From: Ostrinia nubilalis
Lineage: Eukaryota; Arthropoda; Insecta; Lepidoptera; Crambidae
Length of the DNA stretch: 64,000 nucleotides
NCBI RefSeq assembly: GCF_963855985.1
Contig: NC_087106.1
Span: 3,517,001-3,581,000 of the forward strand
Reading direction: 5' to 3'
Shown here: piece after piece, positions 11,601 through 61,014 of the stretch
Position numbering within the stretch: position 1 is the first letter of the stretch
Layout of the letters: each line of letters begins with the position of its first letter
The notes under the pieces: generated by a model
Seen by the model: the letters and a program-made list of their open reading frames with translations, nothing else
The model's database searches: none
Told to the model about the DNA's origin: nothing
Position numbers and translations under genes: made by a program

Positions 11601-14355
11601 GAACGCATGAAGCCGCGAAATCGTGATGCTGCATCGATAGTTGCAAAAACGCCGATCGCCCATGCTAAAAGTAGCAAATCTGCTATGACCCTTATAAGAT
11701 TCGTCTATTCTTCCAGGTGGGCCCGGCGGCGGTGGCGGCGTTCCCGCCAGTCCTAGTAGTCCCAAGTACCGGCATGGGCTACGCAGCGATGCCAGTATAC
11801 CCGGCGCCGGCGCAATACCCGCAGCCGCAGCCGCAACCGCAGCCGCCGCAGCAGCCGCCGGTTACTGCAGAACAGCTGCAACAGGTAACGGGAATTCCCA
11901 TCTTAAATTCAGGCCAGTCAGGCTGGCTAGGACTTACTCTGTTCCCCTAGGTGGACCAGGTCGCAGCAGTCCAGCCAAATCCTGATGCCTTATTAGAGAC
12001 CCGTAAGTCTAAAACCTGAGGCTCCGACCTGGAGTACGAGAGTGGCCCCCTGGGGTTGCATTAAGGCCCTCAATCCTGGTCTGTATGAGACCTAAATTCT
12101 GAAGAGAGACCCCCTAGGCCATAGGACTTGCTTAGTTCTCCTAGATGGTCCCGAGCAAGAAGTGGTCAAAAACAACTAGTCAATAGTCATATCTAGAAGA
12201 GGACATTTTAAGAAGTTGTCTCAGACCGCCTAAAGAATCACCGAAGAGCAGCTGCAGCAGGTAAGTCTAGCTAGGACTCACTTTGTTCGTCCAGGTGGGT
12301 CTAGCGATAATCCCGCCGGTGCCCCGCAAAAGTACTAAATCCTGGGGTATTGTTAGAGACCTCTAAGGCTCTGACAGAGCCTCCACCTGGAGCCACGAGA
12401 GAGGCTCCCGGTGAATATCCTAGGGACCGCGTTAGGCCCTCAATAATGGTCTGTATGAGACCTAAATCCTGGGGCTTATCCCCAGCATAGACCCCCAATC
12501 CTGGCTAGCATGTAGGCTTGCACCACATCGATGCAAAGTATCCTCGCCCTCTTCTGGGCCTGGCCTGCATCTTGAGGTCTAGAGAGACCCCCAGGCCAAG
12601 TCCTGGCTGTCTGCCTTTGATCCTGGCTACTACTGTGCTAGTAGTCCCAAGTACCGGCATGGGTTACGCAGCGATGCCAGTATACCCGGCGCCGGCGCAA
12701 TACCCGCAGCCGCAGCCGCAACCGCAGCCGCCGCAGCAGCCGCCGGTCACTGCAGAGCAACTGCAGCAGGTATGACTTACTTTCTGTTCCTGGTCCAAAT
12801 CCTAGGGGCTTGTTAGAGACCCCTAAGTCCAAAACCTGACGCAACGACAGAGCTCCCACGTGGATCCACGAAAGAAGACCCCAGTGAGTATCCTGGGGCT
12901 GCATTAGGGCCTCAATCCTGGTCTGGGGTCAAGAGAGACACCCCTGGCCTGCATCCTGGGGCCTGGAGAGACCCCCAGGCCAAGTCCTGGCTGTCTCCCC
13001 TTAATTCTGGCCACTACAGTGCTAGTAGTTCCAAGGGCACTGCCGAGCAGCTACAACAGGTCAGACCCTGATAGGACTTACGACCTTACTTCTACTTCTA
13101 CTGCATAATTACTTCGGCCTTTTTAGAGACCCATAAGTCCAAAAGCTGAGGCTTTGAGAGAGCCCCCACCTGGAGCCACGAAAGAAGACCCCAGTGAGTA
13201 TCCTGGGGCCGCATTAGGGCCCTCAATCCTGGTCTGCATGAGACCTAAACGGGACTTAGGCCTGCACCACATAGGTGCAAATTATCCTGACCCAAGTCCT
13301 GGGATCTAGAGAGAGACCCTCAGGCCAAGTCCTAGCTGTCTCCCCTTAATCCTGGCTACAGTGCTGGTAGTCCCAAGCACCGGCATGGGCTACGCCGCGA
13401 TGCCAGTATACCCGGCGCCCGCGCAGTACCCGCAGCCGCAGCCGCAACCGCAGCCGCCGCAGCAGCCGCCGGTCACCGCAGAACAGCTGCAGCAGGTATG
13501 AACTTGATAGGACTCACTTTGTTCGTCCAGGTGGATCCAGCAGCATTCCCGCCGGTGGCCCCGCAAAAGAACTAAATTCTGGGGTATTGTTAGATAGAAA
13601 CCCATAAGTCCAAAACCTGACGCAACGAGAGAGCTCCCACCTGGATCCACGAGAGAAGCCCCTAGTGAGTATCCTGGGGCTGCATTAGGGCCTCAATCCT
13701 GGTCTGGGGTCAAGAGAGACACCCCTGGCCTGCATCCTGGGGTCTGGAGAGACCCCCAGGCCAAGTCCTGGCTGTCTCCCCTTAATCCTGGCCACTATAG
13801 TGCTAGTAGTTCCAAGGGTCCCTAGCACGTACACCGCCGAGCAGCTGCAACAAGTCAGACCCTGATAGGACTTATGACCTTACTTCTGCAGCATAATTAC
13901 TTCGGGCTTGTTAGAGACCCCTAAGTCCAAAGCCTGAGGCTCCGAAAGAGCTCCCACCTGGAGCCACGAGAGGCCCCCGGTGAATGTCCTGGGGTCGCAT
14001 TAGAGCCTCAATCCAGGTCTACATTAGACCTAAATTCCGGGGCGAAGAGAGACCCCCCAGGCCAGTTATGTAGTCCTGCACCACATCGGTGTAAATTATC
14101 CTGGCTCTCTTCTGGGCCTGGCCTGCCAATGAAGACACAAATACTGGGTTCTAGAGAGAAACCCCCAGGCCAAGTCCTAGCTGTCTCCCCTAGAGATCTA
14201 AACACAGGGAAGATGAACGATGAACGATGCACTTCCTTTTTCAGATCGAAGAAATGTTCCCGAGCATTGACAAAGAGGTGATCAGGTCTGTGCTAGAAGC
14301 GAACCGCGGGAACAAAGACGCCACCATCAACTCGCTCCTGCAGATGTCGGAATAG
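8672..14355 (+). CDS. TOLLIP: Toll-interacting protein (TOLLIP), C2-linker-CUE part; N-terminal exon outside or unrecognised
   Basis: Six exons in consistent phase: 8672-8747, 9097-9208, 10386-10500, 10995-11081, 11717-11884 and 14245-14355 (222 residues plus TAG). Residues 9-130 form the C2 domain ([43 protein letters not shown]). Residues 131-178 are a Pro/Gln-rich linker ([14 protein letters not shown]). Residues 179-221 are the CUE domain ([31 protein letters not shown]), split by the last intron. TOLLIP is a cytosolic/endosomal adaptor: its C2 binds phosphoinositides, its CUE binds ubiquitin, and it tunes Toll/IL-1 signalling and cargo sorting. The usual short N-terminal Tom1-binding region is not seen, so the first exon must be upstream of 8672. 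Intron 5 is filled with partial copies of exon 5. The gene is convergent with DDX49. Confidence 0.95.
9223..10040. repeat. Large inverted repeat (arms about 280 bp) with a Helitron-like end, in TOLLIP intron 2
   Basis: The left arm, about 9298-9577, is repeated in reverse complement at about 9752-10037. For example, CTAGGTGACCTGGAGATA at 9538 pairs with TATCTCCAGGTCACCTAG at 9774. The loop is about 175 bp. Just outside the left arm, 9223-9290 begins CTAGCGGCCGCCCGCGACTTCG, the reversed 3' end typical of Helitron/Lep1-like elements elsewhere in the window. The transcript could form a long hairpin. Confidence 0.85.
10553..10705. mobile_element. Short MITE-like element (family copy 1)
   Basis: Contains TCTCGTTCTATCGCAAAGAA, then ATTTGATGAGAGCGA and ACGGAAATGG, bracketed by inverted words CCAGCTACC and GGTAGCTGG. 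A second diverged copy lies at 48290-48430. Located in TOLLIP intron 3. Confidence 0.6.
11342..11550. mobile_element. MITE-like element with GGGCTATCGTTTT ends (copy 1)
   Basis: Starts GGGGCTATCGTTTTTA and ends AAAACGATAGCCC, giving inverted ends of about 13 bp. The interior carries repeated TTACTCTACAGTGGCGC words. A reverse-oriented relative lies at 63503-63700. It ends 166 bp before TOLLIP exon 5. Confidence 0.7.
11885..14244 (+). repeat. Array of TOLLIP exon-5 partial copies in intron 5
   Basis: Two long copies of the Pro/Gln-rich exon, at 12637-12771 and 13362-13495, keep the frame from [18 protein letters not shown] to VTAEQLQQ and are followed by GTATGA. Three short copies retain only the AEQLQQ end and donor (12241-12260, 13037-13059, 13829-13853). 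Between them run related minisatellite-like words such as GAGACCCCCAGGCCAAG and CCTCAATCCTGGTCT. Unlike the functional exon (acceptor TTCCAG before GTGGGCCC), the copies start inside the exon without an in-frame acceptor that I can see. Confidence 0.9.
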
Positions 14356-14423
14356 AACGTCAGATAGACGAGTCTACTTAACCTTAGTTCAGTCTGCGGC
14401 ATATCAATTCAGACCCCCTAGAC

Positions 14424-14840
14424 CAGTGGTTCTTAACCGGTGGTCCGCGGACCACTGGTGGTCCCTGGAGGCATTCCAAGTGATCCACGAAGACATCGTA
14501 ATAAACAAGTGACATGACGTGATGAGTCGAGTCAACACAATGCAATCGGCGCATAGTGGGCGAGAAATCGACCGCCCCTTTCATAGGATTTGAAAAAATT
14601 AGTGGTCCCTGACAAGACAGAAATTTGATAAAACGGTCCCTCGTGACCTCGTGACGTAACAGTTGTAATTTTGAAAGACCTTCGCTCCGAAAAAAAAATA
14701 ATGGCGATGTAGCCGGAAAATGCAGCATTCGTCCACCCATAAGGTGTACCGACGACCTCATAAGATACAGAATCGAATAATTTCGATTCTTTGAGTGCAT
14801 TCGAATCGAATGAACAAACACCTCAATCAAATTGGTTACA
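14424..14840. mobile_element. Possible hAT-like fragment in the TOLLIP 3' region
   Basis: Begins CAGTGGTTCTTAACC followed by GGTGGTCCGCGGACCACTGG, a style of terminus common in hAT elements. No matching right end or target duplication was found. Antisense frames across it show no recognisable domain. Confidence 0.4.
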
Positions 14841-16496: not shown

Positions 16497-19400
16497 TCAT
16501 TTATTAACAACTTTCTTCTTCTTCTTCTTATGTTCTTTATCCACCGTCTGGTTTTTGACATTCTCCGCTTTCCTCTTAATTTTGCTGATCTTTCCTATGA
16601 CGTTCTTGAATCTGTCGTCTTTCTTCATCAAGCCCTTGTTGACCTTTTTCAGGCCCTCCTTGATGCTCGCATCTATGTCTGTCTCGCTCGGTTGCAGGCG
16701 ATTCCCATCGCTCTGTCCCGTTTCCTCTTTACTCGCCATTTGTGCCTGCAGTTGTTTGATTTTCTCCAGTTTAGCTTTCTTGGCCTCTTTGACTCGCTTC
16801 CGACGCATTTCTTCCAATCTATGGATGTAGAAAATATTACATTTATTTCAAAGATATTTGCGCAATTTTGTGTAAACATAGGATCTTAGTAAAATGATGG
16901 ATCAATAAAGATAATATTTAAAACTATGTACAGTCTGTACACTGTAGTAGTGTACAGTACTACAGTGGTCCTCATTGAGGTCTGGGTCCAATAGAATGAA
17001 GACTAAATGGCCTCGTCGAAACACATCTGGCGATTCAAAATGGGCCTTAATCTGTTCAAATAGAGTAGAGCCCACACTAAAGTTAAGTGCCAAGCGATAG
17101 TGACCCTTTCTGCATAAGGTAGAGACATCCGAGTATCTTGCAGTTCAAAATGGACCCTAAATCTTTTCAGGTAGAGTCCATATCTACGTACGATTGCCAA
17201 GCGACACTGACCCGTCCTGTATAAGGTCGAGACATCCGAGTATCTTGCAGTTCAAAATTGTTCCTAAAGGCCTTGCCACACTGGCGGATTGCAAGCGGAG
17301 CGGCGGGTACGCCGCGGTCGCCAAAATGCTTGCAAAATGCCGCGGCGTACCGCGCCGTGCCGCTGCTCCGCCCAGAAAACGCTTGCAATCCGCCAGTGTG
17401 GCAAAGCCCTAAATCGATTTAAGTAAAGCCACAGAATAATAATAAGTACTACGTACAGAAGTTTTACTTCGCGAAGGTATTTAAAAAAATGTATGCTCAA
17501 TGTCATTAACAATATAGTGTTATTTAGCCTGTCTCAAGAGTCAAGCACCATTTTGTTGACAAACGTCAGTGATCGGCACTGCGCCGAAGCTATAGGGCTG
17601 ACTTCGGTAAAATGATGTGACGTGAGGTGCCAAACTGCGGAAAATGGCGGAGGAAATACATGATTTAACATGAATTATTATGAATAATATTAACTAATTA
17701 TTTACCTCTCAGTGTCTTGAGGCAACTTAAAAAAGTACATTCTGTGTTTTTATTATTATTTAGGCAGTTAAATACTGCACAGTATTTAGTACACCATTTT
17801 CTTTATTTTCTTCTATCATACACAAGAATACGCGTGCGTGAGTCAATGTTCGCTCGTATGTGAAACCTTGTCGAATAGTATCCTGTAGGTGGGCCATCGT
17901 GCGTGTTTTGTTTTCGATGTAAACTCACGGAGATGAACAGGCCTGGTAAAGCCCACATTAAAGTCAAGTGCCAAGCGATACTGACCCTTTCTGCATAACC
18001 ATAAGGTCTGACATCCGAGTATCTTGTCGTTCAAAATGGACCCTAAATCTATTTAAGTAGAGCCCACATCTACGTACAATGAGGGTTTTCGCGAATGAAA
18101 GATCCGCTAGATGGCGGGACGTGGATGTGGGGTCTGACTGCTGCGTGATTGGCGGATTTTGACATATCTGTCAATGTCATGTCAAAAATAACCAATCACG
18201 CAGCATTTGGACCTCCTGTACGTATTGCCATCTGGCGGATTTTTCATTCGCGAAAACCCTCATTGCCGAGCGATACTGACCCTCTGCATAACCATAAGGT
18301 CGAGACATCCGAGTATCTTGCAGTTTAAAATGGACCCTAAATCTTTTCAGGTAGAGTCCATATCTACGTACGCGTGCCGAGCGACACTGACCCGTCCTGT
18401 ATAAGGTCGAGACATCCGAGTATCTTGCAGTTCAAATTGTTCAAAATGATTGACCCTAAGGGCTTTGCCATACTGGCAGATTGCAAGCGAAGCACGGTCG
18501 CCAAAATGCTTGCAAAATGCCGCGGCGTACCGCGCCGCGCCCCTGCTCCGCCCAGAAAACGCTTGCAATCCGCCAGTGTGGCAAGGTCCTAAATCGATGT
18601 AAGTAAAGCCCACATTAAAGTCAAGTGCCAAGCGATACTGACCCTTTCTGCATAACCATAAGGTCTGACATCCGAGTATCTTGTCGTTCAAAATGGACCC
18701 TAAATCTATTTAAGTAGAGCCCACATCTACGTACAAGTGTCAAGAGATACTGACCGTTCCTGCATAAGGTCGAGACATCCGAGTATCTTGCAGTTCAAAA
18801 TTGAGCCTAAGGGCCTTGCCACACTGGCAGATTGCAAGCGAAGCAGCGGCGCGGCGGGCACGCCGCGGTCGCCAAAATGTTTGCAAAATGCCGCGCCGCT
18901 GCTCCGCCCAGAAATCGCTTGCCATCCGCTAGTGTGGCAAGGCCCTAAATCGATTTAAGTAAAGCCCACACTAAAGTGAAGTGCTGAGCCATACCAGAGT
19001 AAATACAAATGAGTAGGTCATCTTCATAGACACGCACCGAGCGCGGTTTGTATGTGAGCGCGCCAATACGTATGCGGTGCGCACGCACACACTGACAAAA
19101 TTCGGCACAACACCCCGCTAATCCACGCTAAATTGTAACGTATTGGCGCACTCACATACAAACCGCGCTCGGTGCGTTTCTATGAAGATGACCAACTCAT
19201 TTGTATTTACTCTGGCGATACTGACCCTTGCTGCATGAGCTCGGGATCCACGCCGGCCATGCGCCAGCGCTTGACGCGGTAGTTGAGCGCGCGCTGCTCA
19301 AACTCCTCGTTGTCGAGCTTGGCTTCCTGCTCGCGGCGCGTCACGCTGACTGTTGTGAATACTCGCACGGCCTCGTCGTCTGGAAACAGAATAGCTTTTA

Positions 19401-22400
19401 ATTATACTATTATTTTATTATGCAGTGTTTAAAAACCTATTTGGTAATTCTGGTGCTCGAATACGACGTCTTTTTATTTGGGACTAACATCTAAAACGCA
19501 TTAAAGACAGGGTGGGGCAAAAGTAATCATAATATTGGAAGATGCTATAACTTTTGCAAATATAGCCAAATGTGAAATCGGAATCGGTTCTCATATATTT
19601 GAAGTAAACATTTATGTGTTTCATTCATTACCCTTTGTTAGACACAGAACCCTAAATAGGCTGATTGAAATGTCCAGTAGGCCTAGGATGCGTGCCATGA
19701 TAAATTTATATCAAGGTGTTTTATAATTTTTACACGATAAGCCCATACATTTTTCGCCTAAACCCATCGATAAGGTTTTATCGCGCATCCTAGCCTCGCT
19801 TATGTCGACACATACCATCGATCTTGTACTCCGTGAGCTTGGTGTTGATGTGTTCCTCGATCTCGCCGAGGCGCAGCAGGTCGTACGGCGTGATCAACGA
19901 GATGGCCAGCCCGCTGCGAGCCGTGCGGCCCACAGGTATTTTATCGAGTTTTCACGATAAGCCCATACATTTGTCGTCTAAACTCATCGATAAGGTTTTA
20001 TCGCGCATCCTAGCCTCGCTTATGTCGACACATACCATCGATCTTGTACTCGGTGAGCTTGGTGTTGATGTGTGCCTCGATCTCGCCGAGGCGCAGCAGG
20101 TCGTACTAGGATGCGCGCTACAATAAACTTTTATCGAGGCATTTTATCGATTTTTCACGATAAGCCCATACATTTGTCATCTAAACTTATCTTTTTTTTA
20201 TGTGACAGGAGGTAAACGAGCATACGGATCACCTGATGGTAAGTGATTTTATCAAAGCGCGCATCCTAGCCTCACTTAGCACTCCTGCACACACACGACG
20301 CCGCTACCGCGCCGCCGCCGCGCCTTTGCAGTGTTTATACGCGCCGCGTGAACACCGCTGCCGCACCGCCGCCGCGCCGCGGGCGAAATTATGCTTTGAT
20401 GGCGCGATGGCGGCGCGGCGGCGGTTTTACTCGGTGCGTATGAACAGGAGCGCTTATGTCGATACATACCGTCGATCTTGTACTCCGTGAACTTGGTGTT
20501 GATGTGTTCCTCGATCTCGCCGAGGCGCAGCAGGTCGTACGGCGTGATCAGCGAGATGGCCAGCCCGCTGCGAGCCGTGCGGCTCACAGGTATTTTATCG
20601 AGTTTTCACGATAAGCCCATACATTTTTCGCCTAAACCCATCGATAAGGTTTTATCGCGCATCTTAGCCTCGCTTATGTCGACACATACCATCGATCTTG
20701 TACTCCGTGAGCTTGGTGTTGATGTGTGCTTCGATCTCTCCGAGGCGCAGCAGGTCGTACGGCGTGATCAGCGAGATGGCCAGCCCGCTGCGGCCCGCGC
20801 GAGCCGTGCGGCCCACAGGTATTTTATCGAGTTTTCACGATAAGCCCATATATTTGTCGCCTAAACCCATCGATAAGGTTTTATCGCGCATCCCAGCCTC
20901 GCTTATATCGACACATACCATCGATCTTGTACTCGGTGAGCTTGGTGTTGATGTGTTCCTCGATCTCGCCGAGGCGCAGCAGGTCGTACGGCGTGATCAG
21001 CGAGATGGCCAGCCCGCTGCGGCCCGCGCGAGCCGTGCGGCCCACCCTGAAGACAAAAGGAGGATCATTCCAAAACACATCTTAAAAAAACACTTATTCC
21101 TAGCCCCTATAGTGTTAGTTTTCGAATGCTGTAAAATTCTAGTACCTTTGGAATCAATCCGGCTCGAAGGACCATACAGTTGTATGGTTGCTGCAATTTA
21201 CAAGTAAATAAAATGTTGCACCGTACACAATCGCGAACTGGAGACGTCAACCAAAACCATGGAGATTGATGGAGATACTTTTGATGAACTATTAAAATAC
21301 AGTTTCTTCAAGTATGGAAACGCAAACGTTTGACAAAATTCTGGCTTTATTGCCACTACACAATCCACCTATGCACGTGCTCTTTAGGCTCGAGTGGCAA
21401 CTTGTGGTTAACCAACAGTTCCACCAAGGGTATATCAAGGCCTCGCACATTTGTTGCCATGAGCGTGCGCTTCAGATTTATCCGGAACTGCACCACAGTA
21501 ATACTACACCTGTGCACATACTCCTTAGGCTCAAGAAGTGGTAGCTTATGATTAACCACCAGGTCCACAGAAGGTATATTCTAAGCCTCGGGCAGAAACA
21601 TTTGTTGCTACAAGCGTGCGCGTCAGGTAACTTGTTCGGAACTGTGCTACAATAACACTACACTTCTTACCTGTGCACGTACTCCTTAGGTTCTAGCGGC
21701 AACTTGTGGTTAACCACCAGGTCCACAGAAGGTATGTCGAGACCTCGCGCCGCCACATTAGTTGCCACGAGCGTGCACTTCAGGTCGCTGGGACCACTCA
21801 CCTGTGCACATACTCCTTCGGTTCTAGCGGCAACTTGTGGTTAACCACCAGGTCCACAGAAGGTATGTCGAGACCTCGCGCCGCCACATTAGTTGCTACG
21901 AGCGTGCGCTTTAGATTTATCTGGAACTGCACTACAGTAATACTACACCACTCACCTATGCACATACTCCTTCGGTTCTAGCGGTAGCTTATGATTAACC
22001 ACCTGGTTCACAGAAGGTATGTCCAAGTCTCGCGCAGCCCCATTAGTTGTTACGAGCGTGCACTTCAGATCACTGGGACCACTCACTCACCTGTGCACAT
22101 ACTCCTTCGGCTCAAGCGGTAGCTTATGATTAACCACCAGGTCCACAGAAGGTATGTCTAAGCCTCGCGCCGCCACATTAGTTGCCACGAGCGTGCGCTT
22201 CAGATTTATCCGGAACTGCACTACAGTAATACTACACCACTCACCTATGCACATACTCCTTCGGTTCTAGCGGTAGCTTGTGATTAACCACAAGGTCCAC
22301 AGAAGGTATGTCCAAGTCTCGCGCCGCCACATTAGTTGCCACGAGCGTGAGCTTCAGGTTACTTCGGAACTGTGCTACAATAACACTACACTTCTTACCT

Positions 22401-25400
22401 GTGCACATACTCCTTAGGCTCAAGCGGTAGCTTATGGTTAACCACCAGATCCACAGAAGGTATGTCGAGACCTCGCGCCGTAACATTTGTTATCACGAGC
22501 GTGCGCTTCAGGTTACTTCGGAACTGTGCTACAATAACTCTACACTTCTTACCTGTGCACATACTCCTTCGGTTCTAGCGGCAACTTGTGGTTGACCACA
22601 AGGTCCACAGAAGGTATGTCCAAGTCTCGCGCAGCAACATTTGTTGCCACGAGCGTGCGCTTCAGATCGCTGGGACCACTCACCTGTGCACATACTCCTT
22701 CGGTTCTAGCGGCAACTTGTGGTTGACCACAAGGTCCACAGAAGGTATGTCCAAGTCTCGCGCAGCAACATTTGTTGCCACGAGCGCGCGTGCGCTTCAG
22801 ATCGCTGGGACCACTCACCTGTGCACATACTCCTTCGGCTCAAGCGGCAGCTTATGATTAACCACCAGGTCCACAGAAGGTATGTCCAAGTCTCGCGCAG
22901 CAACATTTGTTGCCACGAGCGTGCGCTTCAGATCGCTGGGACCACTCACCTGTGCACATACTCCTTCGGTTCTAGCGGTAACTTGTGATTAACCACCAGG
23001 TCCACAGAAGGTATGTCGAGACCTCGTGCCGTAACATTTGTTATCACGAGCGTGCGCTTCAGGTTACTCCGGAACTATGCTACAATAACTACACCACTCA
23101 CCTATGCACATACTCCTTCGGTTCTAGCGGCAACTTGTGGTTAACCACCAGATCCACAGAAGGTATGTCGAGACCTCGTGCCGCCACATTAGTTGCCACG
23201 AGCGTGCACTTCAGGTTGCTCCTGAACTGCGCTAGGGCGGCGCTGCGCTCTCGTTGACGCATGAACCCGTGTAGGCACACGTTGTCCATGCTTATGGCGT
23301 TCATCATCATCGAGATCACTTGACATTCTCTGCAATAGATAATAAACTTTGGTATATGACCAAGAAATCTTTGGATCATTGTTATGTTTACAATCCGGTG
23401 AGTTAATTGCGCACTTGACAGCCGTGACGTCACATCGATGATCTAGTACAAACGGGGTGAACGCGGGGAGGTGCATTCTAGTGAGGTGCGCAATTAACTT
23501 GACCGGGTTGTAATATTGATCACAACCATTTGTTTTGAGGTAACTTGTAAAATTAACTAAATGCTGGTCAAATATGTTAGGGCCGTTTTCCACCAAGGCG
23601 GAGCAGAGCCGAGAGTAGCGGAAAAGTGCTTTGAATAACCAATCAGATTTCATTATTTTCACTTCTCTTCTCCGCTCCGCACAGCTCCACTGCTGTCAAA
23701 TCTATACTAATACTCGTATTATAAATGCGAAAGTAACTCTGTCTGTCTGTCTCTCTTTCACGCCTAAACCACTGAACCGATTTTGATGAAATTTGGCATA
23801 GAGATAGTTTGAGTCCCGCGAAAGGGCATAGGATAGTTTTTATCCCGGTTTTTGAAACGGACGCGCGATAAAGTTTTTCTGTGACAGACAAAATTCCACG
23901 TGGGCGAAGCTGCGGGCGGAAAGCTAGTTCTATATAAAAATTAGTCCGCCCGTCACTTCTGCGCTTCGCCTTGGTGGAAACTGGGCCTTAGGTTAGGTAC
24001 TTAGAAGATAACTCACTTCTTAGTATCCGTAAACACGATGATGTGCGAACTGGGCTTGGTCTCTCGGTACTTGCGCAGCGTCTGCACTAGATAGACGTCA
24101 CGCGCATACGCCGGGCATACCACGTACCGCTGGTCTAGCGTGGACACCGTCAGCTGAGGGTCTGACTCCGTCCATATTAGCAGTTTCTGATGGAAAAAGA
24201 ATCGCTATGTATCGTAAAAGCCAGAGTACACGACGCGTTGAGGCGGCGGTGCGACGCCGGAGCGGTGACGCTGCGTCGTCTTAAGGTACAAATCCAAGAT
24301 GGACTGCAGACCGCAACCGCAGCTAGAGAATGCGATTAACCGCAATGAATACAAAAAAGTCAAAGAAACCGTGGTGGCTTGCAGTTTGCGGTCTGCACGG
24401 TCAAGGTCTTACCTTAACATAGAAATATGTGGCGGACACACGAAAGCTGCGCTGCGCGATATGGCGAAATCGTTGCGGAGTCAAAACGCATTGTGTGCTT
24501 GACTCATATGAGAGTACTTTCTCTTAACTAAGAAGGTTTAAACAATCTGATGTTATTTTGAATTACATATTAGTTATTTCTCTGAGAAATGTTGTGTTCA
24601 TTCTATAATAATACATTATATTTGGAGATATCATCACACAAAAAGTCCTCTCCTGTGAATTTTTACAAAGCCATAGCTACATCAATCCAAAACTTGACTA
24701 GTCTAACCTGAGCAGACTGAGCTAGAGTACTATGAATACTATTCATATACCTATCAAGAATAAAAACAAATAATTATTTACTGGATGTATAAAATTAAAA
24801 AGGGAGCAGGGAAATAACTAGGGTTTCTGCTCGAGCTTTCTCGAACTCGAGAAAACTCGAGAAATTTGGCTTCATTCGAGACGAGAAAAAAATTACCGGA
24901 GCTCGAGAATTCTCGAGTTTCGAATTTGAAGCTTTTAATATTCTTGAAAGCCTATTTTCTTAGACAAAAGTAAGTTTTTAATTATTTAATAGGTTAACGT
25001 TGCTTTTAGACTGGTCTAGTCTTTCCTTTTTTACCCGACTGCGTGACGCAAAGGAGTGGTAATGTGTCTAACAGCCTATGTATGTATGTTTTTGAAGCAC
25101 TATAGAGACCAAACTCCTGGGTCGACTTTTATAATTCGCACGTCAATCGATTTCTCTTAGCTCGGTGAGTGTCACTAAAACAATGACGTTAGTAAAAATT
25201 CAATATGGCGACTAGGACGCCGATTTTTGTCGCCATAATATGTATTAAAAAAATATCTCAAAACCTATTGAGTGGGGTATCAATAAAGGGTTTTTAAATA
25301 GCTTGCAAAATGTATGCTCTTTAACTAAAAGATTAAAACATATTATTGAAAAAAAAACCCAACTGGGTAAAAATTAACTGAAAAGATAGAAATAAGACAA

Positions 25401-47900: not shown

Positions 47901-50900
47901 TTTTTAACCCAGAATAACATATAGGCTATAATTTATGATGATATGTGACAAATAAATTTCAATAAATAAATAAGACGTGTCTAAATAGCGCCATCTATCG
48001 TCATTGGTTAAAATCTACAGCTACTGTTTTTGAAGTTCGTAAATATTCATGCGGGGGAAGCCGTGAAACGCTATCTATCAACATGATATCAAACAACAGA
48101 TTATACGAACTAAGGGGAAAAAACGAGGTCCACGAGTACGAAGTCGCAGGCGGCCACTAGTAAACAATATCAGGAAGGATGCCAGGAACGCATTCTCTCA
48201 GCTGCTGACCTGTAACTGAAAATTATTACCTGTCATCATCATAATAGAGTTGATTATACAACTTGATCGAGCTAACTGCGCACGTACTATCGGCAACAGT
48301 GTTAACTGTTGCCAATAGTACGTGGCCATTGTCATCGTGGCCATTGCCATGTCGTCTCGTTCTATCGCAAAGAATCACCATTTGATGAGAGCGAGAGCAA
48401 AAACGGAAATGGATAGTTAACACTGTAGCTGTGTGTACCTCGATGGAATGCGACTCTACCCGCACACCTCTCCACGTTTGCCACGTCCGAACCAAAGCCA
48501 CAGAATAATAATAAGTACTACGTACAGAAGTTTTACTTCGCGAAGGTATTTAAAAAAATGTATGCTCAATGTCATTAACAATATGGTGTAATTTAGCCTG
48601 TCTCAAGAGTCAAGCACCATTTTGTTGACAAACGTCAGTGATCGGCACTGCGCCGAAGCTATAGGGCTGACTTCGGTAAAATGATGTGACGTGAGGTGCC
48701 AAACTGCGGAAAATGGCGGAGGAAATACATGATTTAGCATAAATTATCATGAATAATATTTACCTCTCAGTGTCTTGAGGCAACTTAAAAAAGTACATTC
48801 TGTGTTTTTATTATTATTTAGGCAGTTAAATACTGCACAGCATTTAGTACACCATTTTCTTTATTTTCTTCCATCATACACAAGAATACGCGTGCGTGAG
48901 TCAATGTTCGCTCGTATGTGAGGCCTTGTCGAATAGTATCCTGTAGGTGGGCCATCGTGCGTGTTTTGTTTTCGATGTAAACTCGCGGAGATTAACAGGC
49001 CTGCCAAAGCGTCGAAGTGACGTCACAGCCGCTAGGTGCGCAGTTAACTCGACCGGGTTGTAGCTGTAAACTATTACTTGTTATCATCACAATAGAGTTG
49101 ATTATAGTGCATCATTCTCAGCTGTACTGTAATAGTATTTTTTTTATTTTCAGGTACCACCTGAGGACTTTCCACGACGCGGCCACCACACACTACATTC
49201 GCTCGTCGCAGATGTTCCACAGCACGCTGTGTCATGCGCCCGCGCTGTTCCTGCTGTCCCGTAGCGACCCCGTAGGCGCTGAGAACAGCAATCGCAGCGT
49301 GCATGATAGCTGGGTCAACCTGGGCGTTAAGGTAACGTTAATGTTCCACGGGACGTTGTGCCTCGCGCTGTTCCTCCTACTGTCCCGTAGCGACCCCGTA
49401 TACATCGAGCGTAGCAATCGCAGCGTGCATAATAGCTGGGTCAACCTGGGCATCAAGGTAACACTAATGTTTCATGGGACGCACTAATGTCCCGTAATGA
49501 CCCCGTAGACGTTGGAAGCAGTAATCGCAGCGTGCACGATAGCTGGGTCAACCTGGGCGTCAAGGTAACACTAATGTTCCATGGGACGCACCAATGTCCC
49601 GTAATGACCCCGTAGACGTTGGAAGCAGTAATCGCAGCGTGCGTGATAGCTGGGTCAACCTGGGCGTTAAGGTAACGTTAATGTTCCACGGGACGTTGTG
49701 CCTCGCGCTGTTCCTCCTACTGTCCCGTAGCGACCCCGTAGGCGCAGAGAGCAGCAATCGCAGCGTGCATGATAGCTGGGTCAACCTGGGCGTTAAGGTA
49801 ACACTAATCTTCCATGGGACGCACTAATGTCCCGTAATGACCCCGTAGACGTTGGAAGCAGTAATCGCTGCGTGCGTGATAGCTGGGTCAACCTAGACGT
49901 TAAGGTAACACTGATGTTCCACAGTGACAGGATGCACTAATGTCCCGTAGCGACCCCGTAAGAGCCGAGCGTACTAATGGCAGCGTGTATCAACTTGGGC
50001 ATCAAGGTAACACTGATGTTCCACGGGATGCACGAATGTCCCGCGCTGTTTCTGCTGTCCCGTAGCGACCCCGTAGGCGCCGAGAGCAGTAACCGCAGCA
50101 TGCATGATAGCTGGGTCAACCTGGGCGTCAAGGTAACACTAATGATCCATGGGACGCACTAATGTCCCGTAATGACCCCGTAGACGTTGGAAGCCGTAAT
50201 CGCAGCGTGCACGATAGCTGGGTCAATCTGGGCGTCAAGGTTACTAATATTTCACGGGACGCTTTGTTAATACTGTCCCGTAGCGACCCCGTAGGCGCCG
50301 AGAGCAGCAATCGCAGCGTGCATGATAGCTGGGTCAACCTGGGCGTCAAGGTAACGTTAATGTTCCACGGGACGCACTAATGTCCCGTAATGACCCCGTA
50401 GACGTTGGAAGCAGTAATCACAGTGTGCGTGATAGCTGGGTCAACCTGGGCGTCAAGGTAACACTGATATTTCACAGGACGCTGTATTTCTGGTGTCCCG
50501 TAGCGACCCCGTAGGCGCCGAGAGCAGCAATCTCAGCGTGCATGATAGCTGGGTCAACCTGGGCGTCAAGGTAACACTGATGTTCCACAGGACGCACTAA
50601 TGTCCCGTAGCGACCCCGTAAGAGCCGAGCGTACTAATCGCAGCGTGTATCAACTTGGGCATCAAGGTAACACTGATGTTCCACGGGACGCACGAATGTC
50701 CCGCGCTGTTCCTCCTACTGTCCCATAGCGATCCCGTATACATTGAGTGTAGTAATCGCAGCGTGCAAGATAGCTGGGCGTCAGGGTAACACTAATGTTC
50801 CACGGGATTCTGGGTCTCGCGCCCGCGCTGTTACAGTTGTCCCGTAGCAACCTCGTAATGATTTCGTTCGTTCGGTTAAGCCGAAAGATGTCCACTGCTG

Positions 50901-51400
50901 GACAAAGGCCTCCCCAAAGTTTTCCACAAACTCCGGTCCTGCGCCGCCCGCATCCAGGCTCTTCCCGCGACATTTACCAGATCATCGGTCTATCTTGTGT
51001 GGGGCCTGCCCACACTACGTCTTCCGGCTCGTGGTCGCCACTAGAGAACTTTTCTACCCCAGCGGCCATCAGCTCTACGAGCTATGTGCCCTGCCCACTG
51101 CCACTTGATTCTAGCGATTCTGCGGGCTATGTCAGTCACTTTGGTTCTCCTGCGGTCCGTAACGATTTATGACATTTTTATTAGAACTTTTATTACCAAA
51201 ATTACATAACTTACAGATTTATTGATTATAATATTCTAAAAGTATTATTCTTCCCACAGTGCACATGGAAATGCTGGGACCGTTCACCCCACGTCCAACA
51301 CTACAACTACCACAAGAAGGAATACGTGGAAGCCCTTTACAACCATCTCCACGCCTACGGTCTACTCTCGCAGCCGGAGAAGATGCGCCAGAGGTTATAA
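29972..51400 (+). CDS. DUF829/TMEM53-like alpha/beta-hydrolase-fold protein, copy A, complete
   Basis: Seven coding exons: 29972-30043, 41751-41890, 42464-42629, 43535-43665, 45785-45922, 49154-49331 and 51260-51400. They total 966 nt and encode 321 residues. Exon phases and lengths (166, 138, 178) equal those of copy B. Hydrolase-like features: nucleophile elbow GFSVGGY (Ser151), SRSDPV (Asp254) and SPHVQHY (His286/289), as in TMEM53 (DUF829) proteins. Residues 1-40 contain Arg/Lys and Ser but no Asp/Glu, consistent with a mitochondrial presequence rather than the nuclear-envelope form; this is inference. Exon 1 is assigned by phase and similarity of position to copy B exon 1 across an 11.7-kb intron. 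Intron 6 carries 13 partial copies of exon 6. The true substrate of the family is not known to me. Confidence 0.93.
30870..31204 (+). mobile_element. LTR remnant followed by a tRNA-Ser-type primer-binding site
   Basis: TGGCGCAGTCGGTAGGAT at 31187-31204 is the PBS used by 17.6/297-like gypsy elements (complementary to tRNA-Ser). Upstream lies an LTR-like segment starting near TGTGTTACGTACGCC, with an AATAAA at 31139-31144. The leader continues to about 31400. No gag or pol frame follows, so only the 5' end remains. In intron 1 of copy A. Confidence 0.75.
31870..33110. repeat. Scattered palindromic GTATAGTTTGGAG units
   Basis: Related inverted words recur, such as CGTACTGATCGTGTATAGTT near 31926, TCCAAACTATAC near 31970, and GCGTATGCGTACTGGTCGTG with GTATAGTTTGGAG near 32988-33015. 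They look like fragments of one foldback element. The boundaries are unclear. Confidence 0.45.
32343..32625 (+). mobile_element. tRNA-derived SINE
   Basis: The head has pol III A-box-like TAGTGGTTCGAAACGG and B box GGTTCGATTCC, followed by the common lepidopteran SINE body (ATAGTACAAGCTTTGCTTAG, GTCCAGGGATATTTATTTTT). The acceptor arms do not pair, so it is not a functional tRNA gene. Confidence 0.82.
33645..33740 (-). mobile_element. LINE 3'-end fragment
   Basis: AAAATCTTTATTGCACACAC, then ACAACAGGCGAACTTAATTC and CATTCTCTACCAGCTAA resemble the reversed 3' UTR of a widespread lepidopteran non-LTR element. No coding part remains. Confidence 0.55.
34001..34046. repeat. Perfect 20-bp inverted repeat with 6-base loop
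   Basis: AGGCAGCGTCCTTTAAGCAT at 34001-34020 is exactly complementary to ATGCTTAAAGGACGCTGCCT at 34027-34046; the loop is ACCTAC. It stands alone in intron 1 of copy A, with no recognised element around it. Confidence 0.9.
34371..34675 (+). mobile_element. 3' end of an RTE-type LINE reverse transcriptase
   Basis: Plus-strand frame ends WRPRTGRRSVGRPPTRWTDD, WIRAAQDRALWKTLEEAF and VQQWTSFG then TGA (34649-34651), the typical C-terminus of insect RTE-clade endonuclease/RT proteins. The tail is repeated AACGAACGA. The element is 5'-truncated. Confidence 0.85.
37205..37262 (+). mobile_element. Short 3' fragment of the same RTE LINE
   Basis: GAGGCCTTTGTCCAGCAGTG, then GACGTCATTTGGCTGAAACG and the AACGAACGA tail duplicate the last about 55 bp of the element at 34371-34675. 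Confidence 0.8.
38474..38592. mobile_element. MITE with GGCTGAGTTGCACC ends, copy 1
   Basis: Starts GGCTGAGTTGCACCACCAAA and ends ATTGTGCAACCCAGCC, imperfect inverted ends. The family also has copy 2 at 62666-62762, which shows clear TTA target duplications. Confidence 0.75.
38621..39943. mobile_element. Decayed pogo/Tigger-like DNA transposon, 1.3 kb
   Basis: Inverted ends GGGTAAACCACCCAATTATT and the matching right end AATGATTGGGTGGTTTACCC are flanked by TA, the Tc1/mariner/pogo target. On the minus strand at about 39120-39195 a fragment reads KTGPFTVLTDEEEQLFVDWI, like the HTH region preceding pogo/Tigger transposase. Further GGCAC/TTGGCA words lie inside both ends. No intact transposase remains. 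Confidence 0.75.
40592..40790 (-). mobile_element. Helitron-like repeat, reversed
   Basis: Reads ACTAGCTGTGCTCGCGTGAA at the left and CTGAGATTAGCGCGTTCAAG at the right, the reverse complement of the family at 46932-47171, with the CTAG terminus preserved. Confidence 0.75.
41420..41600 (+). mobile_element. tRNA-derived SINE just upstream of exon 2 of copy A
   Basis: A-box-like TAGCCCAACGGTGAAGTGG and B box GGTTCGAATCC, then the body TATTGTGGTGAGCCCACTCG and ACGAGGGGCTAACGGGACTA. A minus-strand relative lies at 63305-63482. It ends about 150 bp before the splice acceptor. Confidence 0.8.
43860..44015 (+). mobile_element. Jockey-type LINE 3' UTR fragment
   Basis: Contains TCTGGAAGAGATCGCTTCAT, AGCGATAAGACCGCCTAGTT and GGTGTGCAATAAAGTGTATT, the conserved 3' end of a common lepidopteran non-LTR element with its AATAAA signal. 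Confidence 0.7.
44100..44253 (-). mobile_element. tRNA-derived SINE, minus strand
   Basis: On the minus strand the head reads GGCCGTTTGGTGTAGTGGTT, then CCCGGGTTCGATTCCCGG, with pol III A and B boxes and an A/T-rich tail. The ends of the tRNA-like part do not form an acceptor stem. Confidence 0.78.
44259..44491. mobile_element. MITE with GACCCAGAACACAC ends
   Basis: GACCCAGAACACACGGTGAA and the right end CACTGCGTGTTCTGGGTA are inverted, with CGCAACTGCAACGAAAC/GTTTCGTTGCAGTCGC just inside. Flanked by TAA on both sides, so Harbinger-like. Confidence 0.83.
44690..44850. mobile_element. MITE of the TCGGCCGATAGTT family, copy 1 (diverged)
   Basis: AGTCGGCCGATAGTTGGGCC and AACTATCGGCCAACTAAAAG mark the inverted ends. 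Related to elements at 60379-60537, 60660-60834 and 62975-63149. Confidence 0.7.
44876..45668. mobile_element. MITE with GGCTAAGAACTCA ends, interrupted by a hAT MITE
   Basis: Left end GGCTAAGAACTCACGGCGCG with ATTTTCACCCGCGCCCG mirrors the right end CGGGCGCGGGTGAAAATCGC with GCCATGAGTTCTTAGCC. The inner 45084-45575 is a younger insertion. Removing it leaves an element of about 300 bp. Confidence 0.85.
45084..45575. mobile_element. Nested hAT-type MITE, 492 bp
   Basis: Ends CAGTGTTGCCAG and CTGGCAACACTG are flanked by a perfect 8-bp duplication ATTAGTTT (45076-45083, 45576-45583). The interior repeats AGGTTACTTTT several times and contains a run of about 20 C near 45473. Confidence 0.92.
45950..46085. 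repeat. Interspersed repeat, copy 1 (CTCCGAAAAAC family)
   Basis: GGGTTACTCCGAAAAACATT, ATCCGAAGTTTCGAATGTTG and CTCTCACGTAAAGCGAGATG recur at 53040-53155 with few changes. The right side ends GATTCGGAGTAGCC, possibly an inverted end to GGGTTACTCCG. Begins 28 bp after exon 5 of copy A. Confidence 0.7.
46100..46310 (-). mobile_element. LINE 3'-end fragment with an AATCA-repeat tail
   Basis: AATCAAATCAAATCAAAAAT, then TATTTTATTCAATTTAGACC and AAGTGCTGAGAAGAAACGCC resemble the reversed 3' end of a common lepidopteran non-LTR element whose coding tail reads through GGCGTTTCTTCTCAGC. Confidence 0.65.
46932..47171 (+). mobile_element. Helitron-like repeat, forward copy
   Basis: Starts TCTATACTAATATTATTAAG, contains GAACGCGCTAATCTCAGGAA and ends GTACGAAGTCGCGGGCACAG then CTAG|TT. 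Same family as 26245-26500 and 40592-40790. Confidence 0.78.
47500..48165 (+). mobile_element. Lep1-like element interrupted by a hAT MITE
   Basis: Begins CTAATATTATAAATGCGAAA with TTACTCTTTCACGCAAAAAC, and ends near GAGTACGAAGTCGCAGGCGG then CCACTAG|T. The insertion at 47608-47884 splits it. The middle portion (47960-48120) is diverged. Confidence 0.65.
47608..47884. mobile_element. hAT MITE, 277 bp
   Basis: Ends CAGTGTTTTTCAACC and GGTTGAAAAACACTG are perfect inverted repeats flanked by a perfect CTTTACAG duplication (47600-47607, 47885-47892). Internal GGGTCGCGACCCCCTGGCGG is typical of this hAT group. Confidence 0.93.
48290..48430. mobile_element. Short MITE-like element (family copy 2)
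   Basis: Inverted words ACAGTGTTAACT and AGTTAACACTGT bracket TCTCGTTCTATCGCAAAGAA and ATTTGATGAGAGCGAGAGC, matching the element at 10553-10705. Confidence 0.65.
48500..49003. mobile_element. Repeat element with 8-bp target duplication, copy 2
   Basis: Near-identical to 17431-17945 apart from an 11-bp deletion and scattered changes. Flanks CCAAAGCC (48492-48499) and CCAAAGCG (49004-49011) are a target duplication with one mismatch. It sits 150 bp upstream of exon 6 of copy A. Confidence 0.85.
49332..50830 (+). repeat. Array of about 13 partial copies of exon 6 of TMEM53-like A, with donors
   Basis: After the functional exon 6, units of about 95-140 bp repeat the exon end DSWVNLGVK and the donor AAG|GTAAC. 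Copies end near 49455, 49564, 49672, 49797, 49903, 50006, 50131, 50239, 50350, 50457, 50570, 50666 and 50787. Two classes occur: long units with SRSDPVGAESSNRS and short 107-bp units with SRNDPVDVGSSNRS. None keeps the first 100 bases of the exon or an acceptor. Intron words AATGTTCCA(C/T)GGGACG lie in every unit. Confidence 0.93.
50858..51175 (-). mobile_element. RTE LINE 3' fragment, minus strand
   Basis: TCGTTCGTTCGG tail, then GTCCACTGCTGGACAAAGGC, ACGTCTTCCGGCTCGTGGTC and CTACGAGCTATGTGCCCTGC. This is the reverse complement of the C-terminal coding region seen at 34371-34675. It abuts the end of the exon-6 array, 85 bp before the last exon of copy A. Confidence 0.82.
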
Positions 51401-51439
51401 TAACACTGCCTTGAAGCTACGTAATGTAGTATAGAAGCC

Positions 51440-55060: not shown

Positions 55061-55069
55061 AACACAGTC

Positions 55070-55252
55070 AGTTTATTCTTGTAAAACACACAGAACGCGC
55101 GTGTTCATTTTAGTTTGTTTTCGTCAATTTAACAACTATCTATTGTGTGTTAAATTATGTATGACCTCAATGGCTCAGCTAAATGCTAATGGTTGATTTG
55201 TATACATGTATGTTTGAAAAGATGCATACATTACGGACCGGGACACTTGAAT
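55070..55252 (+). other. Predicted 5' untranslated exon of TMEM53-like B
   Basis: A donor TTGAAT|GTGAGTACC at 55253 and an acceptor TAATTCTAG at 55841-55849 would place the ATG 14 bp into the next exon, as in copy A. ACACAGTCAGTTTATT near 55062 resembles an arthropod TCAGT initiator. The left limit is inferred. Confidence 0.5.
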
Positions 55253-58800: not shown

Positions 58801-61014
58801 GTACAGCGTCTCTAGCGGCTACTATCAAAAACACTACATTGTGAAATGCAATAAAGTATTGAGTAAAAATCTTCATAGATTTTTTTGACGCACTCGCTAG
58901 CAAGCACACCTAACGTAAACTCATGGTTAACACTGATTAACGCAAAAAAGAACGTCAGTCATATAGAAAAACAACCATTAACTACATTCTCAAACGCATA
59001 GCAAAATCGTCTATTTACCTTACTTCAGGAGAAGCGGGCTCGGTTGCTATGGTGCCTCTTCCTCTATCACATAACGGATAGATGTCTCTCTCTCTCTCTC
59101 GCACAATTTCAAAATACTGCCGTGGTGGCAACAGCAATCTGTTATGCTGCGTCCTGGTCAATCGCACTGGACATAATGGTCACACTAGTTCTCGCATATA
59201 TACTGTTCCTTCATTGCCCACTGCTGGACATAGCCCTCCCTCAAGAATTTTCACAATTACCGGTACTGCGCTGCCGGCATCCAAGTGCTTCCCTTGACCT
59301 TCACCAGATCTTCGATCCACCTAGTCGAGGCCTGTCCACGTCTTCCGGCCTGTGGTCGCCACTCAAGAACTTTTCTGCCCCAACGGCCATCAGCTCTACG
59401 AGTTATGTGCCGTTTTACCCAAATGCCAAATGGCGTCCACTGCTGGACAAAACTCCCCCAAGGACTTCCACAATACCGGTCTTGAATCGCCCTAATCCAG
59501 GCCGGGCCGTTTTACCACAGAATAATAATAAGCCTACTGGTTTTACACTGAGTTGCGTTATAATTGAAAACTCTTGTACTAGATACCACTTGAAGAAGTT
59601 CCACGACGCTGCGACGTCGCATTACCTGCGTGCTTCGGATCTCTTCCACAAGACCCCGTGTCGTGCGCCCGCGCTGTTCCTACTGTCCCGTAGCGACCCC
59701 GTAGGCGCCGAGCGGAGTAACCGCAGCGTGCATGATAGCTGGGTCAACCTGGGCGTCAAGGTAACACTAATGTTCCATGGGACCCACTAATGTCCCGTAA
59801 TGACCCCGTAGACGTTGGAAGCAGTAATCGCAGCGTGCACGATAGCTGGGTCAACCTGGGCGTCAAGGTAACATTAATGTTTCACGGGACCCACTAATGT
59901 CCCGGAATGACCCCGTAGACGTTGGAAGCAGTAATCGCAGCGTGCATGATAGCTGGGTCAACCTGGGCGTCAAGGTAACACTAATGTTCCATGGGACGCA
60001 CTAATGTCCCGTAATGACCCCGTAGACGTTGGAAGCAGTAATCGCAGCGTGCATGATAGCTGGGTCAACCTGGGCGTCAAGGTAACACTAATGTTCCATG
60101 GGACGCACTAATGTCCCGTAATGACCCCATAGATGTTGGAAGCAGTAATCGCAGCGTGCGTGATAGCTGGGTCAACCTGGGCGTCAACACATATCTTCAT
60201 TTTAATTATTTTATTTTTCATACAAATCGGATTTTATAAAATTTATTTTGTATGAAAATTTAAAAAAATAAAATGATCATATCATATTTCTGACTTCACC
60301 ATATCATTTATATGCCTATGTTAACATGGGCAGGTGTCGGCTCATATACCCATTTACCTAACACCCTGTATAAGCCTAACCGCAGAAGACTTTGTCGGCC
60401 GATACTGTTAATCAGTATGGAGGTGTATGAAAGTGCGCACATTACACCGATTTGTTGTCGGACGATTCTTCATATAAATTAGAATCGGGCCCAACTATCG
60501 GCCATCTAAAAGTCGGTGGTCTGCGCCTAGACTAAAACTCTCGCTGCGCGACCTAACATTCTTCTTCTTCTCAGTCGTTACATTCTTGACAGAGTGCTCG
60601 TGATCCATGTGTGGATTACTGCGGATTTTGCTCGCCTTACGATGATCTTAGTACATTAAGAGTAGGCGCACACCGTTGATTTTTAGTTGGCCAATAGTTG
60701 TGCCCGATTTTAATTTGTATGAAGAATCGGCCAAATCGAATCGGCGTAGTGTGCGCACTCCCATACATGCCCATACTGATCATCTGCCCGACTAAACTAT
60801 CGGCCGACGAAAAATCAACGGTGTGCGCCTACTCTAAACATCAATATATCATTTTCAGTGCACGTGGCACTGCTGGGAGCGCTCGCCGCACGTGCTGCAC
60901 TACAACAAACACCAGCAAGAGTACCTCCAACTTCTGCACGACCATCTGACTGCGCGGGAGTTGCTCGCGAACCCGGATAAGATGCGTGCGCGTGCCCCGG
61001 TCATGACGTCATGA
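55864..61014 (+). CDS. DUF829/TMEM53-like alpha/beta-hydrolase-fold protein, copy B, complete
   Basis: Seven coding exons: 55864-55917, 56230-56372, 56936-57101, 57621-57748, 58549-58686, 59583-59760 and 60859-61014. They total 963 nt and encode 320 residues. Close paralogue of copy A: exon 3 encodes QGFDVVSVSCSPWQLMWPQK in both with one difference. GFSVGAY (Ser145), SRSDPV (Asp248) and SPHVLHY (His280) form the hydrolase-like triad. The N-terminus (MATLRSSLFALPKNLRSQ and onward) lacks acidic residues for over 40 positions, fitting a mitochondrial presequence (inference). The gene is compact (5.2 kb) compared with copy A (21 kb). Intron 6 carries four 107-bp copies of the exon-6 end. Convergent with RBM28. 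Confidence 0.94.
55965..56090 (+). mobile_element. Degenerate tRNA-derived SINE
   Basis: AATAGCCCAAAGGATTGGTA and CACGCGGGTTCCAACCC resemble the A and B boxes of the SINE at 41420-41600, followed by TATTGTGGCAACGTAGC. Lies in intron 1 of copy B. Confidence 0.55.
59206..59510 (-). mobile_element. RTE LINE 3' fragments, minus strand
   Basis: TTCATTGCCCACTGCTGGAC, then GTCTTCCGGCCTGTGGTCGC, CAAGAACTTTTCTGCCCC and CTACGAGTTATGTGCC, followed by a second partial 3' end (GGCGTCCACTGCTGGACAAA). Two truncated copies of the family at 34371 lie head to tail just before exon 6 of copy B. Confidence 0.75.
59761..60187 (+). repeat. Array of four 107-bp exon-6 end copies in TMEM53-like B
   Basis: Units end at about 59867, 59974, 60081 and 60187 and are nearly identical to each other. 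They match the short units of the copy A array: TGTCCCGTAATGACCCCGTA, then GACGTTGGAAGCAGTAATCG and the donor CGTCAAG|GTAACA. The last unit is cut just before the donor (GGCGTCAACAC). No acceptor is present. Confidence 0.93.
60196..60278. repeat. AT-rich hairpin after the copy B array
   Basis: CATTTTAATTATTTTATTTT then TCATACAAA is mirrored by TTTGTATGAAAATTTAAAAA then AATAAAATG around a loop of about 20 bases. Confidence 0.7.
60379..60537. mobile_element. MITE of the TCGGCCGATAGTT family, copy 2 (diverged)
   Basis: TTTGTCGGCCGATACTG at left and CCCAACTATCGGCCATC, AAAGTCGGTGGTCTGCGCC at right match the family defined by 60660-60834. Confidence 0.7.
60660..60834. mobile_element. MITE of the TCGGCCGATAGTT family, copy 3
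   Basis: GAGTAGGCGCACACCGTTGA and TCAACGGTGTGCGCCTACTC are perfect inverted ends flanked by TAA. It ends 24 bp before the last exon of copy B, so it lies very close to the splice acceptor and probably overlaps the branch-point zone. Confidence 0.88.

Follow-up and report, generated by a model that had tools for sequence, protein, structure and literature searches.

This locus raises the question of why introns of unrelated genes should carry tandem copies of the end of the preceding exon, and of what has shaped those copies since they arose. The window (the whole stretch of DNA analysed, 64,000 nucleotides from Ostrinia nubilalis) contains TOLLIP, DDX49 and two TMEM53-like genes, here called TMEM53-A and TMEM53-B. 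Exon borders were placed from corn-borer proteins together with splice signals. The stitched exons of DDX49 and TOLLIP gave proteins 100% identical to Ostrinia nubilalis records, the TMEM53-B exons matched an O. nubilalis record, and TMEM53-A was 99% identical to an O. furnacalis protein. These matches mark the window as part of a corn-borer nuclear scaffold and bore out the gene names used in a preliminary description of the window. The canonical exons yielded the annotated DDX49, TOLLIP and TMEM53 proteins and agreed with the Ostrinia cluster representatives among the proteins listed. Since the annotated proteins come from the canonical exons, the exon-proximal donor is used.

The 29 placeable exons, each with 120-nt flanks, were scanned against the whole window, the first exons of TOLLIP and TMEM53-B being unplaced. 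Long local copies were found solely after TOLLIP exon 5, DDX49 exons 6 and 7, and exon 6 of both TMEM53-A and TMEM53-B; the remaining matches reflected similarity between the TMEM53 paralogues or repeats in the flanks. A further array, after DDX49 exon 8, was missed by the exon scan because just about 10 exonic nucleotides are repeated. All six arrays of the preliminary description were thus present at the places it had given. The features are as follows.

11717..11884, plus strand: TOLLIP exon 5 (real; VGPAAV...TAEQLQQ), donor CAG/GTAACG; residues identical to O. nubilalis P0241
12635..12769, plus strand: long intronic copy 1, TOLLIP exon 5 positions 34-168 with donor GTATGA; 6 synonymous and 0 nonsynonymous differences
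13361..13495, plus strand: long intronic copy 2 of TOLLIP exon 5 with donor GTATGA; 9 synonymous and 0 nonsynonymous differences
11938..13564, plus strand: three acceptor-plus-exon-start copies of TOLLIP exon 5 (about 11938-11983, 12286-12337 and 13522-13564), interleaved with donor-side copies
23102..23329, minus strand: DDX49 exon 6 (real), donor TAG/GTGAGT; protein match and splice signals
21369..23101, minus strand: 12-copy array of the DDX49 exon 6 end (113-133 nt), GT after each, spacers of 12-28 nt; third-codon-position variation
20919..21046, minus strand: DDX49 exon 7 (real), donor ATG/GTATGT; protein match and splice signals
19816..20918, minus strand: DDX49 exon 7 array of four copies, three starting at exon position 2 and one at 58, each running through the donor; three with a 102-nt spacer
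19226..19379, minus strand: DDX49 exon 8 (real), ending GCAGCAAGG/GTCAGT; protein match and splice signals
17096..18764, minus strand: DDX49 exon 8 end (~10 nt) with the donor, in four copies inside a degenerate intronic repeat
49154..49331, plus strand: TMEM53-A exon 6 (real), donor AAG/GTAACG
49332..50857, plus strand: 13-copy array (units 96-126 bp) of the TMEM53-A exon 6 end and donor, last copy truncated
59583..59760, plus strand: TMEM53-B exon 6 (real), donor AAG/GTAACA
59761..60187, plus strand: array of four 107-bp units after TMEM53-B exon 6

The donor was retained in nearly every unit. Each of the 12 DDX49 exon 6 copies kept the GT, and 10 kept GTRAG; their units measure 131-161 bp and contain, besides the exon copy, just 12-28 nt. 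An impression by eye that this short spacer ahead of the copies was decayed exon was dropped. GTATGT followed all four DDX49 exon 7 copies, one of which is partial; three of them begin at exon position 2, right after the acceptor, and their 102-nt spacer contains a dispersed repeat. GTAAC was present in 12 of the 13 TMEM53-A copies and a donor in three of the four TMEM53-B copies, the final unit being cut off there. The 126-bp TMEM53 units combine roughly 116 nt of exonic sequence with 9-10 nt on the donor side. The array after DDX49 exon 8 fits the same description in that exon end and donor are repeated, although its unit is mostly intron: a 19-nt string (10 nt of exon end and 9 nt of intron start) recurs in four copies with 1-2 mismatches, where a pattern search allowing up to 3 mismatches would expect 0.01 chance matches. 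As a description of sequence, "decoy U1 sites" was an apt term for these GT donors, which resemble the real ones, and it reaches no further than that; the array copies are fair candidates for decoy 5′ splice sites. The units had also been called recent-looking. This suits the 107-bp TMEM53 units and the DDX49 exon 7 copies, which match their exon at 97-99%, but less so DDX49 exon 6, at 79-95%.

Past its real end, TOLLIP exon 5 is followed by two long and three short copies, a count that omits scan matches at 11860 (within the exon) and 12745 (within a copy). The long copies are spaced 885 and 726 nt, and the spacers between copies differ by 10-23%, with many indels. No acceptor-side array had been seen in the preliminary description, but acceptor-side copies do occur in the TOLLIP intron: its three acceptor-plus-exon-start copies read CCCCTAG/GTGG, TCGTCCAG/GTGG and TCGTCCAG/GTGG at about 11938, 12286 and 13522. 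When compared with block shuffles, 1, 3 and 0 of 300 scored equally well, the stretches having been picked by eye; the same test on 12770-12830 revealed no acceptor-side copy (65 of 300 shuffles as good).

Long-unit arrays in the window are clearly tied to exon 3′ ends beyond random placement. Six of nine such arrays cover an exon end with its donor (P 3.5e-6), the three off-exon arrays in this list having been picked by eye. With the TMEM53 pair counted once, five of eight lie on exon ends (P 5.8e-5), and under the most conservative event count, in which the DDX49 introns are also counted once, three of six do (P 0.0035). A strict donor-only rule was not supported, the donor-side bias by itself falling short of significance, with a two-sided P of 0.06 if all five are scored as donor-side and 0.38 if TOLLIP is scored as mixed (4 of 5). 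Such asymmetry as there is could, by reasoning, follow from cotranscriptional order, in which the authentic donor is made first whereas a duplicated acceptor puts the wrong one first.

The cases are also fewer than the six independent ones previously claimed. TMEM53-A and TMEM53-B share array units of 107 bp, the B units being up to 98.1% identical to A units and 83-87% identical to their own exon end, and the A unit at 50131 is nearer exon B (0.961) than exon A (0.921). The two proteins are 68-69% identical, the two exons 5 are 70% and the two exons 7 62% identical, and two TMEM53-like proteins are listed for several other Lepidoptera too. Array units 98% identical despite this protein divergence indicate that the arrays were recently transferred or homogenised between the loci, the kind of between-locus unit exchange expected of a gene-conversion donor array; the TMEM53-A and -B arrays are one event plus transfer. 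Between the paralogues, pS was 0.26 in the array part of exon 6, 0.57 in its 5′ part, and 0.72 in exon 5. Conversion of the coding sequence itself is only suggestive, because exon 3, which has no array, is also low (pS 0.33). In an A/B protein alignment that used 19 of at least 120 listed proteins, the array segment was not distinguishable from ordinary conservation.

The copies were aligned codon by codon to their own exons, except where they were too short (all those of DDX49 exon 8 and the three short ones in TOLLIP). For DDX49 exon 6, copy-copy comparisons (66 pairs) gave pS 0.377 and pN 0.065, a ratio of 0.17, with 234/153/742 differences at first, second and third codon positions; exon-copy comparisons (12 copies) gave pS 0.384 and pN 0.050, a ratio of 0.13. 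Variable sites were distributed 12/9/29 over the three codon positions, of 43 each (G+C-stratified permutation, P 5e-5). Over the last 23 full codons, residues were unchanged in 10 of the 12 copies despite silent changes, and in the last 46 nt, a region chosen after viewing the copies, 12 of 13 variable sites were silent (P 2e-6). In TOLLIP, the two long copies differ from the exon by 15 silent and no replacement changes, so that pN/pS was 0, as it also was between the copies; all 12 variable sites were third positions (P 6e-7; G+C-stratified permutation P 5e-5). The ratios for DDX49 exon 7 (0.22 and 0.26) come from few changes, and its codon pattern is too thin to judge. The TMEM53-B ratios were 0.35 and 0.19. 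In TMEM53-A the ratios were 0.42 and 0.42 and no codon-position bias was detected (variable sites 11/10/13, P 0.36 by the same G+C-stratified permutation), which suggests that the method itself does not create codon bias. Mutation bias from G+C or CpG was rejected as the source of the pattern: the third-position excess persisted after G+C stratification and was present at both CpG and non-CpG sites in DDX49 exon 6. Codon-phase conservation in DDX49 exon 6 and TOLLIP exon 5 is a real statistical surprise: copies absent from the annotated proteins seen, and mostly without acceptors, have preserved the encoded residues nearly intact, which is not expected of untranslated DNA. It is the most unusual property of the intronic copies, and the preliminary description did not contain it.

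Other features of the DDX49 exon 6 array point to exchange. The four-gamete test failed for 210 of 351 site pairs. By our own reading, the exon had no private state at any of 51 variable sites, and there were no fixed exon-copy differences. Singletons comprised 10 silent and 15 replacement variants versus 26 and 9 among shared variants (Fisher P 0.015), so that by this weak test singletons look nearer neutral. Speaking against simple functionality of the copies, five of the 12 carry Gly to Asp in the ARGLDI motif, at a position occupied by Gly in all 120 relatives listed, and one copy contains a stop codon.

The codon pattern was compared with models of copy evolution. A freely decaying copy should, by reasoning, differ from its exon at a replacement rate at least about half of the silent difference; an exon-copy ratio of at least ~0.5 is expected because the exon changes silently only, whereas the copy changes everywhere. 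The observed ratios of 0.13 for DDX49 exon 6 and 0 for TOLLIP led to rejection of a snapshot model, in which the exon gave rise to copies at various times. Families evolving by conversion or unequal crossing-over that lacked a one-way bias were likewise rejected: all nine settings, some with copy-to-exon transfer and some lacking it, yielded exon-copy ratios of 0.66-0.87 and copy-copy ratios of 0.80-1.02. Transfer was also modelled in a Wright-Fisher population in which the exon is overwritten by copies and any replacement change it takes on is lethal. Without transfer, exon-copy ratios were 0.55-0.80 and copy-copy ratios 0.80-1.18 in five of five replicates. One-way transfer at low rates (N×r 0.12 to 3.6) was rejected as well, with copy-copy ratios of 1.03 falling to 0.54 (two replicates each). 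At N×r 4.8 the copy-copy ratio was 0.33-0.63 and the exon-copy ratio 0.20-0.43 (five replicates), at N×r 9.6 they were 0.10-0.22 and 0.06-0.13 (five of five replicates), and at N×r 19.2 the copy-copy ratio was 0-0.07 (five replicates), or 0.03-0.14 with slower turnover. One unreplicated run made earlier with slower turnover (N×r 9.6) had given 0.66 copy-copy and 0.43 exon-copy; other earlier runs agree in trend.

With N×r of about 10, the copy-to-exon conversion model comes close to the data. The observed copy-copy ratio of 0.17 fell inside the simulated range and the exon-copy ratio of 0.13 at its upper edge, and the exon-copy ratio was lower than the copy-copy ratio, the same direction as observed. 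Simulated mean pS was 0.28-0.41 in the transfer model, and at N×r 9.6 silent divergence was 0.28, under the observed 0.38. The model requires conversion into the exon to be about 270 times commoner than copy replacement. It also fits the near-neutral singletons and the absence of private exon states, both of which are weak tests. Mosaic sites, the lack of a private exon state and a simulation near the data are compatible with copy-to-exon transfer of the kind expected in a gene-conversion donor array; no transfer was seen directly.

The simplest origin of the arrays is tandem duplication that splicing tolerates. In every array the first unit of the duplication is, as can be read from the DNA, the exon's own 3′ end and 5′ splice site. 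Such duplications presumably persist because the donor next to the exon is still the authentic one and a usable acceptor is missing from most copies, which leaves the annotated mRNA unchanged. The exon stays in the repeat family, with units swapping among copies, as the mosaic sites support, and in TMEM53 swapping between paralogous loci about 10 kb apart, as the 98% identical units support. In this proposal DDX49 exon 6 and TOLLIP exon 5 would mainly be recipients, for example if exon breaks were repaired from intronic copies. Overwriting by an amino-acid-changed copy would damage the protein while silent changes pass, and the copies would come under indirect purifying selection, as the codon statistics and simulation suggest. 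Tolerated donor-side tandem duplication combined with copy-to-exon exchange in DDX49 exon 6 and TOLLIP exon 5 is tentatively taken as the best explanation as a whole. The bolder statement, in which intronic exon-end copies seeded at 5′ splice sites act as repair templates that constantly overwrite the exon and so are untranslated copies under coding constraint, is doubtful at present. Counting against the combined explanation, besides the roughly 270-fold bias that the model requires and its low silent divergence, are the absence of the codon effect in TMEM53-A and the presence of just two long copies in TOLLIP.

There are two serious explanations of the codon pattern, conversion into the exon or hidden translation. 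Under the latter, some copies would be spliced and translated as hidden alternative exons and be under direct protein-level selection, which would account for their codon-phase conservation. Open in-frame AG sites do precede copies. Within the 131-bp units of DDX49, GGTCCCAG/C is in phase with exon 5 and has a pyrimidine fraction of 0.45. A pyrimidine tract (0.75) accompanies CTACAG/TG, which lies ahead of a TOLLIP copy, but its phase suits neither of the two preceding exons; the first C2 exon placed is the only one it would match. The scan for substitute acceptors covered both long copies in TOLLIP and eight of the 12 in the DDX49 exon 6 array, and the DDX49-unit candidates had pyrimidine fractions of 0.30-0.60 versus 0.50-0.80 in 25 real acceptors (one 0.50, one 0.55, the rest 0.60-0.80). 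Translation of the TOLLIP copies instead of exon 5 was weakened as a candidate by the low fractions of its in-phase AG sites, 0.35-0.55, which are level with or under the poorest of the real acceptors. The fit of the listed Ostrinia cluster representatives to canonical exons, together with the ARGLDI substitutions and stop codon in DDX49 copies, also argues against hidden exons, which we regard as improbable though a main rival. The proline-glutamine linker of Ostrinia TOLLIP is identical in exon and copies; this linker, whose length ranged from 33 to 50 residues where measurable, was absent from all 41 other proteins checked, which is awkward for a long common history of translated copies.

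Plain neutral donor-side duplication, with the codon pattern arising from small numbers, uneven mutation or exon history, would suffice for most of the anatomy and suits the TMEM53-A array, near neutral by codon position; CpG and base composition are known influences on mutation. It is nonetheless unlikely, given a third-position excess that survives the G+C and CpG controls and simulated exon-copy ratios of 0.55-0.87 against the observed 0.13 and 0. The view of the preliminary description, that a genome-wide process amplifies exon-donor junctions, perhaps through breakage at transcribed splice donors, draws on the concentration of arrays on exon ends within one window, but the smaller number of independent cases and the acceptor-side copies in TOLLIP make it very improbable. 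An assembly or haplotype artefact is hardly credible: such arrays are hard to assemble, but many units are several per cent apart from their neighbours, with insertions and truncations, and the TMEM53-A and -B arrays are unequal in length.

Several known systems resemble parts of this arrangement. Mutually exclusive tandem exons are tandem exon-like copies with coding constraint; the copies here differ in having no exon start and mostly no acceptor. Cassette or mutually exclusive exons have their own acceptor and donor per copy, whereas in the DDX49 exon 6, DDX49 exon 7 and TMEM53 arrays donors are kept and the true acceptor region is missing from the copies, the TOLLIP acceptor-side copies are separate, and the substitute acceptors before the scanned copies (eight of 12 for DDX49 exon 6, two for TOLLIP) are mostly weak. 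Avian immunoglobulin V genes have gene-conversion donor arrays of pseudogenes. The arrays here are alike in that nearby non-expressed copies are proposed as donors to one functional exon, but they would bring about silent turnover under purifying selection instead of diversification, and conversion is deduced. In minisatellites across an exon-intron junction the tandem units include the junction, as do the head-to-tail units here; the latter differ in being about 100 to several hundred bp long and in showing codon-phase conservation in two arrays.

Among intron- or splice-site-creating tandem duplications, the reported potato RdRp intron gain (PMC4974935) is alike in duplicating across coding sequence with splice sites; it differs in that here nothing is newly spliced in the annotated proteins and many-copy arrays lie inside an existing intron. 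Dual-specific splice-site arrays in polyubiquitin UBC (PMC10809524) are reported to have tandem units bounded by AG/GT, and isoforms containing variable numbers of whole coding monomers. The DDX49 exon 6, TMEM53 and long TOLLIP copies likewise end AG/GT (all 12 of the DDX49 exon 6 array and the majority of TMEM53 units, with TG or CG before the GT in DDX49 exon 7), but they are partial exon copies within introns and at most putative acceptors. Titles and abstract openings returned by a literature search described no array of exon-end-plus-donor copies.

If never-translated copies carry a codon signature, tests for coding constraint can mislead. Intron-to-exon gene conversion, if true, would be a hidden force on exon evolution; if instead the copies are translated, then at least DDX49 and TOLLIP, both conserved genes, contain exons that the annotation lacks. 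With intact donors arrayed next to a single authentic one, these introns also offer a natural test of how the spliceosome chooses among duplicated 5′ splice sites.

The minus-strand gene DDX49 and the plus-strand gene TMEM53-A have in common a dispersed repeat of 528 bp, the two copies of which are 95% identical, one (17425-17952) adjoining the array of exon-end and 5′ splice site copies that follows DDX49 exon 8 and the other (48494-49010) lying inside an intron of TMEM53-A. The array of the latter gene ends at a repeat insertion (50863-51128) with the near-identical sequence GTAAYGATTT at both flanks. In TMEM53-A exon 6 (49154-49331) an Asn codon stands at a position that is Ser in the O. 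furnacalis protein, and several array copies encode Ser there.

A hairpin-like insertion in DDX49 intron 8 (18994-19215), with the donor on one side and the array on the other, has arms of 2 x 78 nt with 96% complementarity. Intron 4 holds a 578-bp inverted repeat (25681-26257 and 26489-27066; 94% identity).

Elsewhere, an uninterrupted lysine-rich open frame of 199 residues (61774-62373, minus strand) is perhaps, as a guess, part of a nucleolar-type protein. Upstream of the TOLLIP C2 exons, long minus-strand reading frames at 4524-7712, presumably BEL/Pao-like, and 1122-3278 resemble those of retrotransposon polyproteins.

In the DDX49 exon 7 array, the spacer carries a dispersed repeat that recurs in the TOLLIP region upstream of the C2 exons:

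8482-8549, 19728-19780, 20137-20191: dispersed repeat common to the exon 7 array spacer and the TOLLIP region

Because the spacer repeat is shared in this way, the duplicated unit of DDX49 exon 7 may have included a mobile fragment.
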